This document shows, piece by piece, positions 12,490-22,317 of a stretch of DNA of 47,603 nucleotides. Positions within the stretch are counted from its first letter, which is position 1; each line of letters starts with the position of its first letter. A program made the position numbers and the translations under genes. The stretch lies in assembly GCA_030524805.1 (NCBI GenBank), contig JAUNFY010000018.1, forward strand, positions 1-47,603. The letters run 5' to 3'. This DNA is from Bacteroidales bacterium. GTDB taxonomy: Bacteria > Bacteroidota > Bacteroidia > Bacteroidales > Muribaculaceae. The notes beneath the pieces are model-generated. The model saw only the letters and a list, made by a program, of their open reading frames with translations, was not told the DNA's origin and made no database searches.

Positions 12490-14309
12490 TTAAAGCAGAC
12501 GGATGATGCCGGTGATTGTCTTGGCATCCAATTTCGTGTCAAGCACCTTCAGGCATATTGAATCACGCCGCGAGATGATGGCCCCGTTGCTTTTCCCCAA
12601 TAAGATTGTCATGTCGACCGGTCTGAAACCACATTTGATGAGTAGGGCCGTGTGGATTTCCGGCATGCTCAGCTTGCCGGAAGCCAGCAGAAAAAGATTC
12701 TGTCGGAAATGAGGTGAATTTTTCAGCACCATCTCTTCCAGTTCTTTCCATAGCGGATTGGAGTCAACTATCATTTTCCCGTCGTGGACATATTCCACAA
12801 ACCGTCGATAGATGTCCGACCCGATTATTTCCGGATCTATCTCTATGTTGCCCGGCGTTCGGGAGTAGAGTTGCAGCAGTTCCTGCTGCAGCCTTTCACG
12901 CAGATCTTTGGCAATGGGATTCTGTTGCCCGGCGTTCGGGAGTAGAGTTGCAGCAGTTCCTGCTGCAGCCTTTCACGCAGATCTTTGGCAATGGGATTCT
13001 GCGGCTGCCGGCTCCGGAGACCTGCTTCCGCAGATGTTTCGCCGCCCGTTTCGCCGCGGGTGTCGGGCGTTATCGCGTTGCGTCGCTCAAGTTCCGCTTT
13101 CAGGATGCTTATGTTGGAGAGCGCCTGCTGAAGCTGGATGATACGTGTCTTGTTTCGGTTTCGGAACAGCAGAATCACACACGACATGACGGCTGCAAGC
13201 ATTATCAGCCACATTACGGCTGCTGTCAACCTCCTGTTGGCTTGCTCGGTCTGTTCTTTCTCGCGCACGTGCAGATCGTAGTTGTATATGCTCTGCTGGG
13301 TTATGGCGAGCTCGGCTCTGTTTTTGTTGAACCGAGACTTCAGCAGCCTGTGATATTCGTAGATGTAACGCCGCAGGGAATCTGTGGCTACAAGCGCGTC
13401 CATATCCGGGTCGAGCAGCAAGTCGTATCCCATCTCTTTCGATATGGAATCGGGGCGCATTGTCAGTTGGCGGGCATACATATAGGCGCAATCCTTCAGT
13501 CCTGCTGCAAGATAGATGTTGGCTGCCACCGACATGGCATAGTCGCGCGCCGCCGGATGCGCTTCCTCCACGATGCCGCGGGCGAAGAGCAGCGCTGAGT
13601 CGGTTTGGTGCGTTATGTTTTTGATCGATGCGATATACATTCTGGATTTGGCCGCATGTCGAGGATATTTCTCTCCCGCCAGTGTCAGTGCCTCTCCAAA
13701 CAGTTGGCGAGCTGCGTCGTAGTCACCGTCACTCAGGTAAATGCCGGCCAGAAGCTGTAGGTCGTTGATTATGTTGATTGTGTCGTTGGCGGCTTTGCCC
13801 GTTTCAAGGGCGGCGCGTATGTGGGGTATGGCCTCGTTGTAAAGGTTGAGTTGTGCAAGCAGCCGGCCATATTGGCTTGATATGTTGGCCTTCAGCTCGG
13901 ATGCGCCGGGTTCTTCCCCGATGGCGTCCTGTGCTTTTTTGAAGTAAGACAACGCTCTTGGATAGTCGCCGATGTCGCTGTAGACCCTTCCGGCATAGTA
14001 GAGTGCTTCCGGGTATCGGCCGTTGCCCTTATGGCTGGATTCGTAATCGAGCACTCTCAGGATCATGCTGTCGGATGTGTGCCTGACATAAGCCTTGTCG
14101 GAGAGTTTCACCATCAGGAAATCAAGGTAGTGCCGGTCGGCCTGCTTCAGCGAGTTGCGGTCTACTGCATTGAGCGAGTCAAGAGCAGCCTCAGGATTGT
14201 TGCGACACATCGACTCGATGTCGGGCAGCAGCTCATTGTCGGTTTGCGGTCGGCATCCGTATAAGGCAAAAGTAATCAGCAGCGAGGCAATCAGTGTCTT
14301 GAGGTTCAT
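12490..14309 (-). pseudogene. Membrane-anchored TPR-HTH regulator, split by a 77-bp tandem duplication
   Basis: The first reading frame (14309 down to 12843) encodes a lipobox-like N-terminus (ALYGC, Cys19), TPR-type helices over residues 25-330, a transmembrane helix near 361-382 and a coiled coil. After Asn462 the frame shifts and ends 26 residues later. The missing C-terminus, with the probable helix-turn-helix (ASGKLSMPEIHTALLIKCGF ... LLGKSNGAIISRRDSICLK), continues in another frame down to 12490. Removing one 77-bp repeat joins the parts perfectly (PGN-IEIDPEIIGSD...) into a 580-residue protein, similar in size and plan to the intact paralogue at 20626-22317. As it stands, the sensor half is made without its DNA-binding domain. 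A phase-variable state, recent loss, or assembly error are all possible. Confidence 0.85.
12846..13001. repeat. Perfect 77-bp tandem duplication inside the TPR-HTH gene
   Basis: Positions 12846-12922 and 12923-12999 are identical, and the match continues 2 bases beyond each unit (TG). 77 is not a multiple of three, so the second copy shifts the frame. No mismatches separate the copies, so the event is recent or maintained. Confidence 0.95.
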
Positions 14310-14644: not shown

Positions 14645-15833
14645 TTAATAATCAAGCAATAATCTATCAATATAACCGAAATGAAGTGAGAAGCAAGATA
14701 TGCAGTCGTTCCAGGATTTGGATGATCCTATCTTTTTTATCTTCTTTAAATCCGGACATGATACGCGAGGACTGTTTTGGGATGCTATGATGCTAATTCG
14801 GTGCTTGTTCCGGTCATCGTCTCCAAAATTGTAATCTGTATCATCCCAGACTGTAAGAACTGTACAGACAATTGGATCGGATCCTTGATAGCCAACTGCT
14901 ATCGACGTTATCTTGTCGTTCAAGTCCAGTGGTTTTATATTTGGTATATTATAAGTGAAATGAAAGTTCGCCAAGCCTCGGTAATGCATTTTACCCTTGA
15001 AATGATCGTTGTCATATAAGGCCATATACCCGAGGTCTTCATCTGCAATATTCTCAAAGCCATCTGCGCGTGTGGAGAGCACGGAGTTATCGTTATCGCA
15101 CTGCTGCAGTGATTGGATGTCAGAATATATGTTGCCTGAAAGGATATCGTTCTGGTCGTAATAATAGATGGTGGAGTCATCGAGAATCACCATCTGCGAC
15201 GATGGATTTGAGTCGATTTCATCCATTATCTTTTCATACTCTTCGTTGTGAAAAATGAAATTACCGTTTTCATCAAGTTCAGCTGAAGTGACATAAGTTA
15301 TCCCCTTATATTTGGCTTTCATCTCAAAGCACTTGGTGCTTCCCGATGCCGATTCTTGTATTATAGTAATTTCTCCGTATGGGATATACGAACCTACGGG
15401 GCTGGATTCAGCGAAAATACAGATGCGTCTGTCGGTTGAAGAGAGGTTGGCATCAAGCCTTACTTTTATGATGGCTTTCCCGTCTGCACTTTCTGTGGAT
15501 ACACGGAAGAATGATCCGCTTACTTGCGACGTATTTCCTGATAAAACAGGTTTCCAGTCTTTTTTTTTCGTTATCCCACTCCGATACGGAGAGGAATAGT
15601 TTGTCGGGTATCTGGAACCCTGTTTCCATGAGCGACTTGACGCTTAATGAGAACTCTTGTTCAGAGGAACTTACCGTCATAGTCTCACTGTTGCTGACTG
15701 AACCCGGAGTGTCAGTAAAGGCATATACAAGTTTTCGAGCTGTAATTTCTCCTTTGATGGCATCATCGTTGGAGCATGCACATGTCAGTGCAAGAAAGAT
15801 TATTGCCGTGAATATTAATTTGATACTATTCAT
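14645..15833 (-). pseudogene. BACON-like plus beta/gamma-crystallin lipoprotein, frameshifted in an A9 tract
   Basis: Reading from 15833, a lipoprotein signal (MNSIKLIFTAIIFLALTCAC) leads into a beta-rich domain ending like a BACON domain. The frame breaks at nine A's (15568 to 15560, minus strand); the paralogue at 18821-19318 has one base fewer here and stays open. Removing one A joins the frame through to 14645, about 395 residues. The C-terminal part (about 15040-14660) has two beta/gamma-crystallin signatures: ALYDNDHFKGK with LNDKITSIAV, and VWDDTDYNFGD with WNDCISCFSL. These contain the N/D-N/D-x-x-S/T-S calcium-clamp pattern, the second with Ser to Cys. It lies 28 bp downstream of the C10 protease gene. 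Polymerase slippage could restore the frame, so it may not be dead. Confidence 0.8.
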
Positions 15834-15861: not shown

Positions 15862-16989
15862 TTACTTTGATGCTACTCCTCCGAGATAAAGGTGCCGCAT
15901 ATTTTTACCATAGTTTGTTCCTCCATTTGTGACATAGTATTTATCCGATGCCCAGCCAGAACTCATTCCAGGTCCCCATCCCCAGTTTATATGATACATG
16001 TTGTTGCCATCGCTTTGAATATAACCATCTAAAATCCACATGTGGCCGCCTGAATTGCTCGATCCGGCGATTAGATGTGGCAGGCCCTCTCGTAGATTCA
16101 TGATATATCGGTTGCTGTCGATATTGCCAGTCTTGTAATCACATTTATATCCATTGTCCAATAAGCAGTGAGCTGCTGCCAAAACAGTGCCTGAGCTACC
16201 ATCGCATCCGAATTTTATTTGACAAGTTAAAGCGACTTCTTGAAGGAAATGTGAAACATTCATAGCTTGTGTAGTATTAAATTGATAGCCATAATTAGGG
16301 AAATTGTCAAAGTTAATGTCTCTGTTTCCGTAGAATGTTCCATGGAATTTCTGCACCGTTGCTATCGTCTGTCCGACGGCAATAGTGACACATCCGATGG
16401 GCATGTGGTTTCCTCTTGTCTTGCATTGATCACAAATGCAATATGTTGCATAGTTATTGAAAGGAGGATTTTGATCCCATAGGAATCTAACCAACGGCGA
16501 GATTATTACATCTGAAGATCGGGTAGTTATATCCTTAGTTTCATTGTCTTGTGCCAATATATCAGATGCTATTTGTGGTATGTTTTCCACCATATCTTTA
16601 AGAGGCTTTATATCGATAGTATCATTTATACTGCCATCCTCTGTATAATAGAATATCTGATCAATTTCCGGAGTGTCGGAGAGAATGACGTAGCCTGATG
16701 TTTCTCCGAAATCTACGGAAACGGTGTGGATGTCGTAGCTGTCAGAAGAAGTTCTTGTCCCGGTACTGAGAGAATCCGGGATATCGAAAGTTTCTGTGGA
16801 GATACTCTTGATTGTGAATGAGTTGTTCTCTGCTCGTGTCCCTTTATGGACTTTTTGGTAAAAATTACCAATCAAGTCGGATATTCTGTCTTGTGGAAGA
16901 TCTGCGGTCTTTGTTTCGAGTAGCTCTGTCTGCGAGCATGATATCATGAGAATGCTCATGATCAAGATTGAGAAAATCTTAAACTTCAT
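15862..16989 (-). CDS. C10 (streptopain-family) cysteine peptidase lipoprotein
   Basis: This secreted cysteine protease of 375 residues has a lipobox at Cys18 (MISCSQ), which suggests anchoring to the outer membrane. Residues 20-155 resemble the inhibitory pro-domain of the SpeB/Bfp family. The catalytic cysteine is Cys200 in MPIGCVTIAVGQT and the catalytic histidine is His316 in GGHMWILDGY. The NWGWG loop (residues 335-339) and GMSSGW complete the family signature. It sits between a small DUF3244-like secreted protein and a BACON-crystallin lipoprotein, all on the minus strand. Sequence is clearly AT-richer than the housekeeping genes around. In Bacteroides such proteases often come with small inhibitor genes; a partner role for the neighbours is inference. 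Confidence 0.9.
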   Translation of the reverse strand: MKFKIFSILIMSILMISCSQTELLETKTADLPQDRISDLIGNFYQKVHKGTRAENNSFTIKSISTETFDIPDSLSTGTRTSSDSYDIHTVSVDFGETSGYVILSDTPEIDQIFYYTEDGSINDTIDIKPLKDMVENIPQIASDILAQDNETKDITTRSSDVIISPLVRFLWDQNPPFNNYATYCICDQCKTRGNHMPIGCVTIAVGQTIATVQKFHGTFYGNRDINFDNFPNYGYQFNTTQAMNVSHFLQEVALTCQIKFGCDGSSGTVLAAAHCLLDNGYKCDYKTGNIDSNRYIMNLREGLPHLIAGSSNSGGHMWILDGYIQSDGNNMYHINWGWGPGMSSGWASDKYYVTNGGTNYGKNMRHLYLGGVASK

Positions 16990-17175: not shown

Positions 17176-17559
17176 TCATGGATTCCACCAACCGGAGAAT
17201 ACGTATGATTCTGAATAGATGCGTAACTCGATTTCCTCTGTGACGCTGTAGATGAATGAGATGAAATCCGCCTCCGACGGGCTGGATAGGATGCAGATTC
17301 CATCCGCATCGTATGCTTCATATAGGTCGATCTGCGAATTGTCGATGCCCGCGACCATGATTCCTTCATGACTGATTGTGCATACGGTCGGGGCCGGAGG
17401 TGTGCGTCGCCCCACGGGGTCTAAAATAGGTTCGTGTTCGCGACGTTTTTCTTTCTTCATCGGGATTGTCTTCGATGAGTTGTTGTCGGCGAAAGTTGTC
17501 GCCGGAAGGGCCATCAGTATTGATGCGAACAGGATAAAAATAGATAAAAATCTTTTCAT
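17176..17559 (-). CDS. Small secreted DUF3244-like protein
   Basis: This exported protein of 127 residues starts at the ATG at 17557-17559; upstream codons in the same frame are not a signal peptide. It has a signal sequence (MKRFLSIFILFASILMALPATTFA), then a basic linker (IPMKKEKRREHE) and a small beta-rich domain: RRTPPAPTVCTISHEGIMVAG ... IDLYEAYDADGICILSS ... ELRIYSES. This pattern resembles DUF3244, a small beta-sandwich family often found beside C10 peptidases in Bacteroidales. It is first in the module, directly behind a consensus promoter. Function is unknown; chaperone, inhibitor or surface adhesin are all open. Confidence 0.7.
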   Translation of the reverse strand: MKRFLSIFILFASILMALPATTFADNNSSKTIPMKKEKRREHEPILDPVGRRTPPAPTVCTISHEGIMVAGIDNSQIDLYEAYDADGICILSSPSEADFISFIYSVTEEIELRIYSESYVFSGWWNP

Positions 17560-17589: not shown

Positions 17590-17620
17590 CAAAATTACAG
17601 TGCCGTGGTGAGGTGGCAAA
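17590..17620 (-). promoter_or_regulatory. Consensus promoter of the C10 protease module
   Basis: On the minus strand TTTG (17620 to 17617), a 19-nt spacer and TAATTTTG (17597 to 17590) are a full match to the Bacteroidetes consensus. The start should fall near 17585, giving a leader of about 26 nt. In the decayed second copy the -7 box reads GAATTTTG and TTTG is displaced, so that promoter looks dead. Confidence 0.78.
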
Positions 17621-17626
17621 AAAACT

Positions 17627-17672
17627 GATGACTGAAAAATGACTTTTTGGGAAAAGTCATCGTTCAGTCATC
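17627..17672. repeat. Long inverted repeat just upstream of the C10 module promoter
   Basis: The left arm GATGACTGAA-AA-ATGACTTTT (17627-17647) mirrors the right arm AAAAGTCAT-CG-TTCAGTCATC (17652-17672), with a 4-nt centre and one 2-nt mismatch. Its edge is 7 bp from the -33 box. It could be a regulator binding site, a DNA cruciform, or the terminator-like end of an upstream transcript. Confidence 0.8.
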
Positions 17673-17813
17673 GGTAATGTGTTGCAGTTCAGATTAAAAT
17701 GGATTGATGGTATTTGTCGTTGTTTTCGACGTTCAGTCGCCTTTCAGACACTTTCAGGCATGGAAAAACAGGTCTCGGATGATAACGCGACAGCCATTTC
17801 CGATACAAAAAAG

Positions 17814-18658: not shown

Positions 18659-18827
18659 GGGCAGCCCGGCCTCGCGACCCGGCTGCCCGTAGGCATAGTA
18701 TTCAAAACCAAAATTTTTAGCTTATGAAGTGGTTGGAATAAATCAATTATTTAACCATGTGAATCTGCTTGTAAAATAAATAGGTGTTTTAGACTTAACA
18801 GCGTATTATCTCAGACAGATTCAAATT
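18659..18827. repeat. 3' flanking repeat of the C10 module, copy B
   Basis: Near-identical to 14476-14643, including the GGGCAGCC/GGCTGCCC hairpin at 18659-18688. In this copy the sequence joins the BACON gene directly; roughly 700 bp present in copy A, the crystallin-coding part, are missing at the junction. Confidence 0.85.
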
Positions 18828-19318
18828 TCCGATGCTGATTCTTGTATTATATTAATTTCTCCGTATGGGATATACGAACCTACAGGGCTGGATTCTGCGA
18901 AAATACAGATGCGTCTGTCGGTTGATGAGGTGTTGGCATCAAGACTTACTTTGATAATGGCTTTTCCGTCTGCGCTTTCTGTGTATACACGAAAGAATGA
19001 TCCGCTTACTTCCGTCGTATTTCCAGATAGAACAGGTTTCCAGTCATTTTTTTCGTTATCCCACTCCGATACGGAGAGGAACAGTTTGTCGGGTATCTGA
19101 AACCCTGTTTCCATAAGCGATTTGACGCTCAATGAGAACTCTTGTTCCGAGGAACTTACCGTCATAGTCTCACTGTTGCTGACTGAACCCGGAGTGTCAG
19201 TAAAGGCATATACAAGTTTTCGAGCTGCTATTTCTCCTTTGATGACATCATCGTTGGAGCATGCACATGTCAGTGCAAGAAAGAGGATTGCTGTGAATAT
19301 TAATTTTAGATTATTCAT
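18821..19318 (-). CDS. BACON-like lipoprotein, truncated paralogue without crystallin domain
   Basis: This 165-residue lipoprotein (lipobox LTCAC near residue 20) is nearly identical to the N-terminal half of the 14645-15833 gene. The domain runs from ARKLVYAFTDTPGSVSNSETM through SLMETGFQIPDKLFLSVSEWDN to a BACON-like end (AIIKVSLDAN ... RRICIFAESSPVGSY). It stops at QESASEI where copy A goes on into a linker and the crystallin domain, because a deletion fused it to the 3' flanking repeat. The frame is intact here (7 T's preceded by A where copy A has 9 T's). BACON domains are beta sandwiches often thought to bind carbohydrate or mucin; function here is unknown. No working promoter is visible upstream. 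Confidence 0.75.
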   Translation of the reverse strand: MNNLKLIFTAILFLALTCACSNDDVIKGEIAARKLVYAFTDTPGSVSNSETMTVSSSEQEFSLSVKSLMETGFQIPDKLFLSVSEWDNEKNDWKPVLSGNTTEVSGSFFRVYTESADGKAIIKVSLDANTSSTDRRICIFAESSPVGSYIPYGEINIIQESASEI

Positions 19319-19607: not shown

Positions 19608-19675
19608 TGAAATATGAGTTTTTGTTGATTTCGGCTGCAAAATTCGGCAGGCGTGATAAAAAGCGGCGGCAAAGG

Positions 19676-20498: not shown

Positions 20499-20544
20499 CT
20501 GATAGCCCCTGATAGATGAGCAAAATCTATCAGGGGCATATCAG
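20499..20544. repeat. Very stable hairpin between the TPR-HTH gene and the outer-membrane protein gene
   Basis: GCCCCTGATAGAT (20505-20517) pairs perfectly with ATCTATCAGGGGC (20525-20537). CTGATA (20499-20504) and TATCAG (20539-20544) extend the stem to about 19 bp with one bulged A. No T run follows on either strand, so a classical terminator is unlikely. A 5' mRNA stabiliser or processing signal is possible. Confidence 0.75.
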
Positions 20545-20625: not shown

Positions 20626-22317
20626 TCACTTGATGGCATTGAGGTAAGATTCCTTAAGGGGGGTGTCGCTGTCTTTGATTTTCTTTTTAAGGCGCGACTT
20701 GCGGTTGTAGACAGCCGACATCTCGATATTGAGGATGACGGCGATGGTGCGCGAACTGAATCCGAGAAGGAGATACATATAGAGTCGGTGGAGATCCTTG
20801 CCGGCTTCTGAAAAATCGGATTTGAACGACAGATACAATCCATCAGTCAACCTGTTGATGTCGCGCTCTAAGTCCGCTATGTAATCGTCGTCGTTAAACT
20901 CGCCTACAATCTTTCCCATCTCCTTCTCAAGCCGGGCATGATGTTTGGGCGAGGCCTGCTTCTCATAATACTCATCGCAAAATGAATTTATCTTCTCATA
21001 CTTCTCCTTGATGGCGGTGCTGAAAGAATCGGAGAGTTCCTTGTTCTTCCTCACTATCTCCGCGAAGTCGTCGTGCAGGCTGTCGAGCGACATGATGGCG
21101 TCATCGCGCAACTTTTCATTCAGTCGGGCTTTGCGCCATAGAAGGAAAGCGATGGAGGCACCGACAATGATCAGCGAGAGTATCGCGACCACCCATGCAA
21201 GTCGTTCAGTACGACGTTTCTCAGCATTGATAAGTTGTTGCGCTTCCTCATATTCGATCAGCGACTTCGACACTCCGTTCTGCATGATGACGCGTATCAC
21301 GCTGTCTTGTTGGCTCCTGTAGGTGTGTAGATCCATATAGGCCTCTTCATAATTGCCTTGCTCCTCGTATATTTCAAAAGTTGTCAGATGGTGGTTTTTG
21401 AGTCTTAACGAGTCGGCAAGAGCCTTTGTGGTAGCCGGCATGCGGGATGTGTCGGCTTTGTTGAAGGCTATGATAAGATTGGATATGTCATTATCCGACA
21501 AGGCTCCCCGGTCTGTTTTGTAGGCAGCGATATAATTGTCGGTGGCTTCACTATACCTGCAGAGTACAAAACGTGAAGTCGCCGCTACCGTAAGAGCCTC
21601 GCCCTGTAGCGTGGAGTCATTCTTTGCCCTGGCATCCGAAGCCAGTTCCTTTGCCAGGGTGTACGCTAAATCGTATTGCCCGTTGTTGGAATAGGCCGTG
21701 GCGAGATCCAGCTTGCCCCAGCCTGTCCACACCTCATCGGCAGATTTGGAAAAAGCCTTGAACTCCCTGTCGGCATATTTGAGCTGTGCCGAACTGTTGA
21801 GCAGTTTGCCATAAAGTATGAATAGCCCTCTCGCGCACTGACCTTCCCATAAATGGCATTCCGCTTCAGCTGCCGTGTGCATGCCCTTTGAAAAGGTCAC
21901 GGCCGCTTCGCTCAACCGGTTGGAATTAAGCTGAACCATTCCCATAAGGAAAAGGGCCCGGGCGGCTTCATGCGGGTGGGCATTATCGAGGAAGTAACGG
22001 GCCGAGCGGCCTATGAGGCTGTCGTTGTCTGTGTCGATGTAGTTTTTGTAGAGGGCATGTGAGAGCAGCAGATCGCGATAGGCGCGGTCATATTCCGTGG
22101 CGTTGTCGCGGAGGCTCAGCGTGTCGAGGACCATGAGGGCGGAATCGGGATGTTGCTCCATGATGGCATCGATGTGCGCGAGCCTTTGGTCCGGCTCCGC
22201 TGTGCAGCCGGAAAGGAGGGCTATCGCCATCCAAAGCAGAGTGAGCAGGTGGCGGAAAGGTTTTGCTCCCGCAGCATGGCTGCCTGTGCGTGTTGATTCG
22301 ATCTCGTTGCCTGACAT
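20626..22317 (-). CDS. Membrane-anchored TPR-HTH regulator
   Basis: This protein of 563 residues is an apparent one-component transmembrane regulator. A hydrophobic N-terminal segment ends in a lipobox (LLSGC, Cys38). TPR-like helical repeats fill residues 45-345, probably in the periplasm. A transmembrane helix spans about 373-394 (LAWVVAILSLIIVGASIAFLLW). A charged coiled coil follows (400-490). The C-terminal 50 residues form a LuxR-like helix-turn-helix: YLLLGFSSRTIAVILNIEMSAVYNRKSRLKKK. The plan matches the broken gene at 12490-14309. The start lies 15 bp after the tamL stop, so it is probably co-transcribed with tamL. Ligand and target genes are unknown; the outer-membrane protein gene downstream is one candidate. 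Confidence 0.8.
   Translation of the reverse strand: MSGNEIESTRTGSHAAGAKPFRHLLTLLWMAIALLSGCTAEPDQRLAHIDAIMEQHPDSALMVLDTLSLRDNATEYDRAYRDLLLSHALYKNYIDTDNDSLIGRSARYFLDNAHPHEAARALFLMGMVQLNSNRLSEAAVTFSKGMHTAAEAECHLWEGQCARGLFILYGKLLNSSAQLKYADREFKAFSKSADEVWTGWGKLDLATAYSNNGQYDLAYTLAKELASDARAKNDSTLQGEALTVAATSRFVLCRYSEATDNYIAAYKTDRGALSDNDISNLIIAFNKADTSRMPATTKALADSLRLKNHHLTTFEIYEEQGNYEEAYMDLHTYRSQQDSVIRVIMQNGVSKSLIEYEEAQQLINAEKRRTERLAWVVAILSLIIVGASIAFLLWRKARLNEKLRDDAIMSLDSLHDDFAEIVRKNKELSDSFSTAIKEKYEKINSFCDEYYEKQASPKHHARLEKEMGKIVGEFNDDDYIADLERDINRLTDGLYLSFKSDFSEAGKDLHRLYMYLLLGFSSRTIAVILNIEMSAVYNRKSRLKKKIKDSDTPLKESYLNAIK

Follow-up and report, generated by a model that had tools for sequence, protein, structure and literature searches.

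The window analysed here, the whole stretch of 47,603 nucleotides from a genome related to the Muribaculaceae of the gut, contains a gene on the minus strand (12490–14309) for a predicted TPR-type regulator that is interrupted by a perfect tandem duplication of 77 bp. The locus raises the question of whether this duplication is a reversible switch, a plain loss of function or an artefact of assembly, and of what the regulator would act on if it were whole. The original prediction, made from the same DNA, favoured an on/off switch for a regulator next to a surface protease module and offered a recent loss or an assembly artefact as alternatives. Its observation of two identical units placed back to back is confirmed: TRF reports a perfect duplication at 12846–13001 (period 77, 2.0 copies, 100% match), and a repeat search of the window returns the two identical units given in Table 1. 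The exact periodic run is 79 bp long, so that both units share the 2-bp TG at their ends. The hairpin inside the unit has a z of −1.94, with equally good folding in 8 of 200 shuffles. A scan of the bacterium's own genome for tandem duplications covered 80 stretches (one of them all N) and the window, i.e. 1.113 Mb of 2.914 Mb or 38% of the assembly. It contains three exact tandem duplications with a period of at least 20, with units of 23, 77 and 211 bp, and no second one of 77 bp. Since these three are all that 1.113 Mb holds, the 77-bp duplication is far beyond chance; taken alone, it is an ordinary type of mutation. The 211-bp duplication is located at a contig end (L147, G000:C79, 10159–10591).

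As predicted, 77 bp leave a frameshift. The 488-residue frame of the truncated regulator stops just past the second unit, and the 160-residue C-terminal frame stays open beyond it to the normal C-terminus. Copy 1 of the unit is read in the normal frame, copy 2 in a shifted frame with a stop just past the unit, and a third copy would fall into a frame that contains a stop. Thus, the protein is complete with exactly one unit and truncated with two or more; rescue of the frame by additional copies is ruled out by the stop in the third frame. This is an exact tandem duplication within an ORF that changes the frame, as in duplication-based phase variation. The cut falls just where the predicted DNA-binding domain begins, and, because both frames are otherwise open, the event looks recent. 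The claim that removal of one unit would restore a protein matching an intact paralogue holds in its first half: only one unit keeps the frame, but the other TPR-HTH gene of the window is no close match. According to BLASTP, that gene product is 25% identical to the truncated regulator over 255 N-terminal residues and has no significant match to the DNA-binding end of the broken regulator, which rules it out as a close intact paralogue. Directly after this second gene, and upstream of an outer-membrane-protein gene, runs an inverted array of the CTGATA/TATCAG type, seen by eye.

Table 1. Positions of the duplication, the two regulators and the predicted target operon in the window
Feature	Position	Strand	Remarks
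Truncated regulator frame, 488 aa	12843..14309	-	Lipobox signal, TPR repeats, transmembrane helix, coiled coil, linker, first helix of C-terminal domain, out-of-frame residues from the repeated unit
Detached C-terminal frame, 160 aa, with predicted DNA-binding domain and recognition helix GKSNGAIISRRD	12493..12972	-	
Unit copy 1 (plus-strand order)	12846..12922	-	Carries a hairpin with a 10-bp stem and a 3-nt loop
Unit copy 2, identical to copy 1	12923..12999	-	TG at 13000–13001 is the unit's first two bases again
Lipoprotein, third gene	14645..15833	-	Frame broken at poly-A run 15560–15568, one base more than the copy at 18821–19318
C10 family peptidase, second gene	15862..16989	-	Pfam PF01640; lipobox-like signal by eye
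Small secreted protein, first gene after the operator	17176..17559	-	E 2e-35 with an HMM built without it; sole match in the window
Putative promoter −7-like box TAATTTTG	17590..17597	-	37 bp from where the last operator core starts
Predicted operator of the broken regulator	17626..17673	-	GTCAT half-sites at 17628 and 17639 (-) and at 17656 and 17667 (+), four in all; two inverted arms, each with 11-bp spacing
Distant second regulator (TPR-TM-HTH; intact; 563 aa)	20626..22317	-	Different inverted array by eye at about 20499–20544

The N-terminal half of the window regulator contains TPR repeats (Pfam). The rest of its architecture is read from the AF2 model of an intact relative, and the transmembrane helix and the lipobox are assigned by eye. 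The relative is L174 from Muribaculaceae bacterium Isolate-037 (Harlan), and its model, built with 20 aligned sequences, has a mean pLDDT of 85. The TPR part is made up of helices from residue 27 to 299 and is followed by one very long helix (residues 310–413), which we read as a probable membrane span continued by a coiled coil, a low-confidence linker (residues 412–431) and a helical C-terminal domain (residues 430–575) with a conserved helix-turn-helix near residues 518–559. The 77-bp unit matches about residues 432–457, i.e. the first helix of the C-terminal domain, in support of the proposal that the break parts the sensor and coiled coil from the DNA-binding domain. A lipobox-type Cys at position 20 is invariant in all 20 aligned sequences. 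The model of L174, the TPR matches, the transmembrane helix and the helix-turn-helix thus place a periplasmic sensor, a membrane span and a putative DNA-binding domain in one chain of the intact form. HTH_23 weakly matches three of 27 C-termini (Pfam, best 7.5e-4), and neither Pfam nor the PDB gives a confident sequence match for the helical HTH domain; the covariation of its helix with operator DNA, described below, argues for DNA binding more strongly than the libraries do. The AF2 model of the detached C-terminal piece alone has a pLDDT of 42. In a PDB fold search, TPR proteins stand at the top among the best 50 matches.

An early scan of genome contigs and viral contigs with the truncated protein returned no relatives. 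Searches of 61 genomes (the bacterium's own and 60 relatives) and of 111 genomes of the genus (its own included) give matches in 41 of the former (E up to 1e-3) and 47 of the latter (E up to 1e-40). The closest intact counterparts found come from other genomes of the genus, the best being 44% identical over residues 6–466, and relatives at up to this identity are unbroken at the duplication point. The comparison with related genomes for which the original prediction had called thus shows that relatives with an intact gene exist in the genus. At L072, both pieces of the window protein (residues 6–466 of the N-terminal piece and 14–151 of the C-terminal one) match one continuous frame of 590 residues. 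Exactly one unit's length separates the two matches in 25 of the 53 relatives that match both pieces; in the others the linker is longer or shorter, in three cases by at least 27 residues (L091, L196, L195). Open frames of 555–664 residues hold 43 of the 61 nonredundant C-termini, and no exact tandem duplication like that of the window was seen in the relatives' genes. Seven of the 61 C-termini, the window's included, come from broken genes, a count that leaves out N-terminal fragments devoid of a C-terminus (e.g. L094, L099). The six others carry in-frame TAG stops (L098, L100) or frameshifts (L092, L093, L095, L096), and none of them has an exact tandem duplication (unit of at least 7 bp) at the break. 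The regulator family is read as one with fast turnover. That the family loses its members by other lesions argues against the duplication as an evolved switch.

Arrays of short repeats spaced 11 bp apart lie just past the stop codon of many relatives' regulator genes (e.g. L072, L004, L012, L077, L171, L203). Typically, each arm consists of direct repeats, the two arms are inverted, and the core varies by gene (CCGCAC, CCGTAC, CCGTCA, CCGAAC and others). An automatic search within about 500 bp of 59 C-termini (the 61 minus the window and one with a gap) found an array of 11-bp spacing that has an inverted arm or a −7 box for 32 of them and none for 27; doubtful among these calls are the array of L176 and the core register of L013, which is read otherwise by eye. 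A TAnnTTTG box, which we take to be a −7-like promoter box on the basis of the Bacteroides promoter consensus, occurs in 20 of 30 deduplicated pairs of regulator and array, always 37–39 bp after the start of the last core; it was searched for at 32–42 bp, and its presence raised the score of an array. A stricter search retains 24 loci with a downstream operator, 22 of which have an ORF after it. In 19 of these 22, the first gene encodes a member of one small secreted protein family (jackknifed HMM, worst E 1.7e-16), and in L172, L004 and L075 the first gene does not match the HMM of this family. The later genes (ten scanned with Pfam) include C10 peptidases (L171, L192, L177), VKOR (L203, L193), radical SAM (L188, L195) and Porph_ging (L184) proteins; those of L201 and L191 have no Pfam match. 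Operons behind the same type of operator also contain a radical SAM protein with its associated lipoprotein in L188 (TIGR04133/TIGR04134, the latter also in L175), a GLPGLI protein in L203, a radical SAM protein in L195 and VKOR proteins in L203 and L193. The operons of L188, L175, L203, L193 and L195 are possibly secreted-peptide systems under the TPR-HTH regulator family. One literature collection yielded nothing on the operator or specificity code of this family, an absence that is no proof.

The core of the operator co-varies with the recognition helix of the adjacent regulator. Asn or His at the recognition position is paired with the core GT[CT]A in six of six cases (five Asn, one His), and other residues in none of 24. 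Mutual information between the recognition residue and the core base is 1.09 bits versus 0.33 in shuffled data and is reached by none of 1000 shuffles, for a link that is the best of 72 column–base pairs tested and a code that is derived from the same data, with related and thus not independent sequences. At a second helix position, Ser occurs with C or A in 12 of 12 pairs and Val or Ile occurs with T at the next base in 10 of 13, the other three being exceptions. In L199, which is of the Asn type, a GTCA operator lies about 480 bp upstream, past the limit of the automatic search; no recognisable operator was found near L173 and L190, which also have Asn-type helices. Judged by these sequences, the covariation suggests a specificity code.

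The recognition helix of the broken regulator (GKSNGAIISRRD) has Asn at the recognition position, and so the protein should bind GT[CT]A repeats. The predicted operator in Table 1 consists of such repeats. An exact-repeat scan of the window (a 7-mer repeated at +11 plus an inverted copy within 60 bp) retains this array and no other, and 20 mononucleotide shuffles give a mean of zero. The pattern MGTCATTTTTCMGTCAT, with one mismatch allowed, has one match in the bacterium's own genome, at 17628, and 19 matches in nine of the 111 genomes of the genus versus two for the reversed control; four of the 19 (L154–L157) lie outside such arrays and five form part of a longer run of repeats close to an HTH gene of another kind in G061. 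This run, of the CCGTCAT type (L202, G061:C18, around 2084–2173), is outside the usual regulator–operator layout. The looser GTCAT-N6-GTCAT occurs six times in the own genome, two of the six being both arms of the predicted operator. Three other genes of the genome match the C-terminal profile (C32, C40, C119), and because all carry other helices, no stand-in regulator is evident.

The operon behind the array encodes, in this order, the small secreted protein, the C10 peptidase and the lipoprotein, and its far end adjoins the broken regulator. The protease module placed next door by the original prediction is therefore there, with a PF01640 score of 69.7 bits against a gathering cut-off of 26. 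Furthermore, the first gene after the array is a member of the small secreted family, which also comes first behind the operator in 19 of 22 relatives. Against the assignment, the broken regulator is 3.3 kb from the array, the operators of relatives were found only close by (about 500 bp searched), and 27 of the 59 relatives have none within that distance. On balance, the array is the predicted target site of the broken regulator.

The neighbourhood itself is unstable. Between 14476 and 19644 the window carries a partial segmental duplication of the protease module, parts of which are repeated at 91–98% identity (15340–15861/18826–19346, 14476–14643/18659–18826 and 17430–17596/19479–19644), and there is a remnant of a small secreted protein gene near 19612. 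The extra A in the poly-A run that breaks the first copy of the lipoprotein gene is a second length lesion in the same operon. A duplicated neighbourhood that bears such lesions fits a decaying locus or one rich in contingency changes.

We consider it probable that the duplication is recent and abolishes the function of the regulator dedicated to the adjacent small-secreted-protein/C10 operon; reversion is possible. The gene would once have encoded a one-component, membrane-anchored transcription activator, in which a periplasmic TPR sensor, one transmembrane helix, a coiled coil and a flexible linker precede a cytoplasmic DNA-binding domain. When intact, it would bind the inverted GTCAT array with 11-bp spacing that immediately precedes the promoter for the genes of the small secreted protein and the C10 peptidase; activation is suggested because the array lies upstream of this promoter. 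The 77-bp duplication, recent and probably real, falls within the first helix of the DNA-binding domain and would then cause the sensor to be made without its DNA-binding end, and the operon would lose its dedicated activator (or repressor). Most likely, the duplication arose by an ordinary error of replication or recombination, and one unit could be lost again.

A maintained reversible switch, in which cells with one unit (on) and with two units (off) of this surface-protease regulator always coexist, is an unlikely account of the locus. The exact identity of the units and the hairpin inside them would favour slippage, the strict dependence of the frame on a single unit would make the gene either on or off, and the poly-A lesion supplies another length change within the target operon. 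Short duplications within ORFs are, moreover, cited as a cause of capsule phase variation in pneumococcus in PMC4022640. However, the absence of tandem duplications from the breaks of all six other damaged family members goes against a switch, and the partly duplicated surroundings with their gene remnant suit plain loss equally well. With one genome per species, a switch that works by gain and loss of a unit is unsupported; the domain reading of the original prediction was right, its interpretation stands in part, and the switch is unproven. Doubtful to a similar degree is a broader proposal, according to which uncultured Muribaculaceae possess membrane-anchored TPR regulators that are each paired by the helix code with their own 11-bp-spaced operator and each placed over a small-secreted-protein operon (with C10 peptidase, VKOR, radical-SAM or other proteins). 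Here, gain and loss of the 77-bp unit, which falls in helix 1 of the DNA-binding domain, would toggle the regulator of the protease operon, a contingency switch in a specificity-coded regulator rather than in a surface gene.

It is improbable that the cells have one unit and that the second was made by the assembler, or that a mixture of strains was assembled. The assembly is a draft in 128 contigs (2.91 Mb, 95.5% complete), the exact 211-bp duplication sits at a contig end, and 77 is a common k-mer size of assemblers. Against this, contig ends of the same genome point to another k. Of 123 ends, 23 have at least 20 bp in common with another sampled place, and their best overlaps are exactly 55 bp in nine cases, 53–54 bp in four, 22–43 bp in eight, and 66 and 222 bp in one each, with none of 77 bp. 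This peak at 55 bp makes 55 the most likely final k, and it is unlikely that the unit is an undeleted k-mer overlap of 77 bp. At k = 55, an exact repeat of 79 bp must enter the assembly graph via real junction k-mers. The lack of a second 77-bp tandem in the sampled sequence likewise speaks against an artefact of this length. Less probable still is a split gene, in which the detached DNA-binding part would be made alone by reinitiation and work as a free regulator. Its frame is open and conserved for 160 residues and a GTG start at 12798 would yield 102 residues, but this start lies within the C-terminal domain, most family members sit in full-length frames as described above, and the short ones checked are broken or cut by the ends of contigs or loci. 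Of the alternatives offered originally, recent loss is thus the best reading and the artefact is weakened.

Among known systems, one of the closest is a case of phase variation. Capsule phase variation by spontaneous duplication within ORFs is described for the pneumococcal type 3 capsule locus, tts and cap8E (Waite et al. 2001, 2003, as cited in PMC4022640). As in that system, a short tandem duplication within an ORF turns a gene off and loss of a unit could turn it back on; unlike in the capsule system, the target here is a regulator and not a biosynthetic enzyme, and other broken copies of the family are free of the duplication. If the duplication were reversible, it would represent a phase switch acting through the dedicated regulator of a secreted protease operon. 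Beyond this locus, the operator, the promoter position and the target operon of this family in uncultured gut bacteria can be proposed from the sequence alone, along with a specificity code of recognition-helix residue versus operator base; the wider gain is the pattern of regulator, operator and target. The domain order in CadC and ToxR is the reverse of an N-terminal sensor and a C-terminal DNA-binding domain. Unlike them, the window regulator has an N-terminal TPR sensor with a lipobox and a predicted C-terminal DNA-binding domain. It is similar to CadC/ToxR in that its intact form would be a single chain of sensor, one transmembrane helix and DNA-binding domain, an arrangement (periplasmic sensor, transmembrane helix, cytoplasmic DNA-binding domain) given for CadC in PMC9214523. 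The best NCBIfam match of both window regulators is NF053779 (BT3442 family protein), to which the truncated regulator scores 50.7 bits and the second one 31.4 bits, both below the cut-off of 940. A passage of PMC2954219 places BT_3442, a TPR protein, at one end of a cluster of surface proteins, adjoining BT_3441.

The layout of the target operon also has counterparts. Transcriptional coupling is reported for the operons of C10 proteases and their inhibitors in Bacteroides (btp/bti, bfp/bfi; PMC3462683), and the window similarly has a gene for a small exported protein beside a C10 peptidase gene. BT2221 is btiZ in the same paper and is given as a DUF3244 protein in PMC10434189. The small secreted protein of the window matches no Pfam family, DUF3244 included, and searches of the PDB with this protein and its family gave no lead. 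One of 15 family members matches DUF3244 (E 0.01), and a relationship to the Bti proteins is only hinted at by this comparison. A second member of the family is encoded elsewhere in the bacterium's own genome (L062, G000:C32, 3–416), on a contig that also carries another close TPR-HTH regulator.
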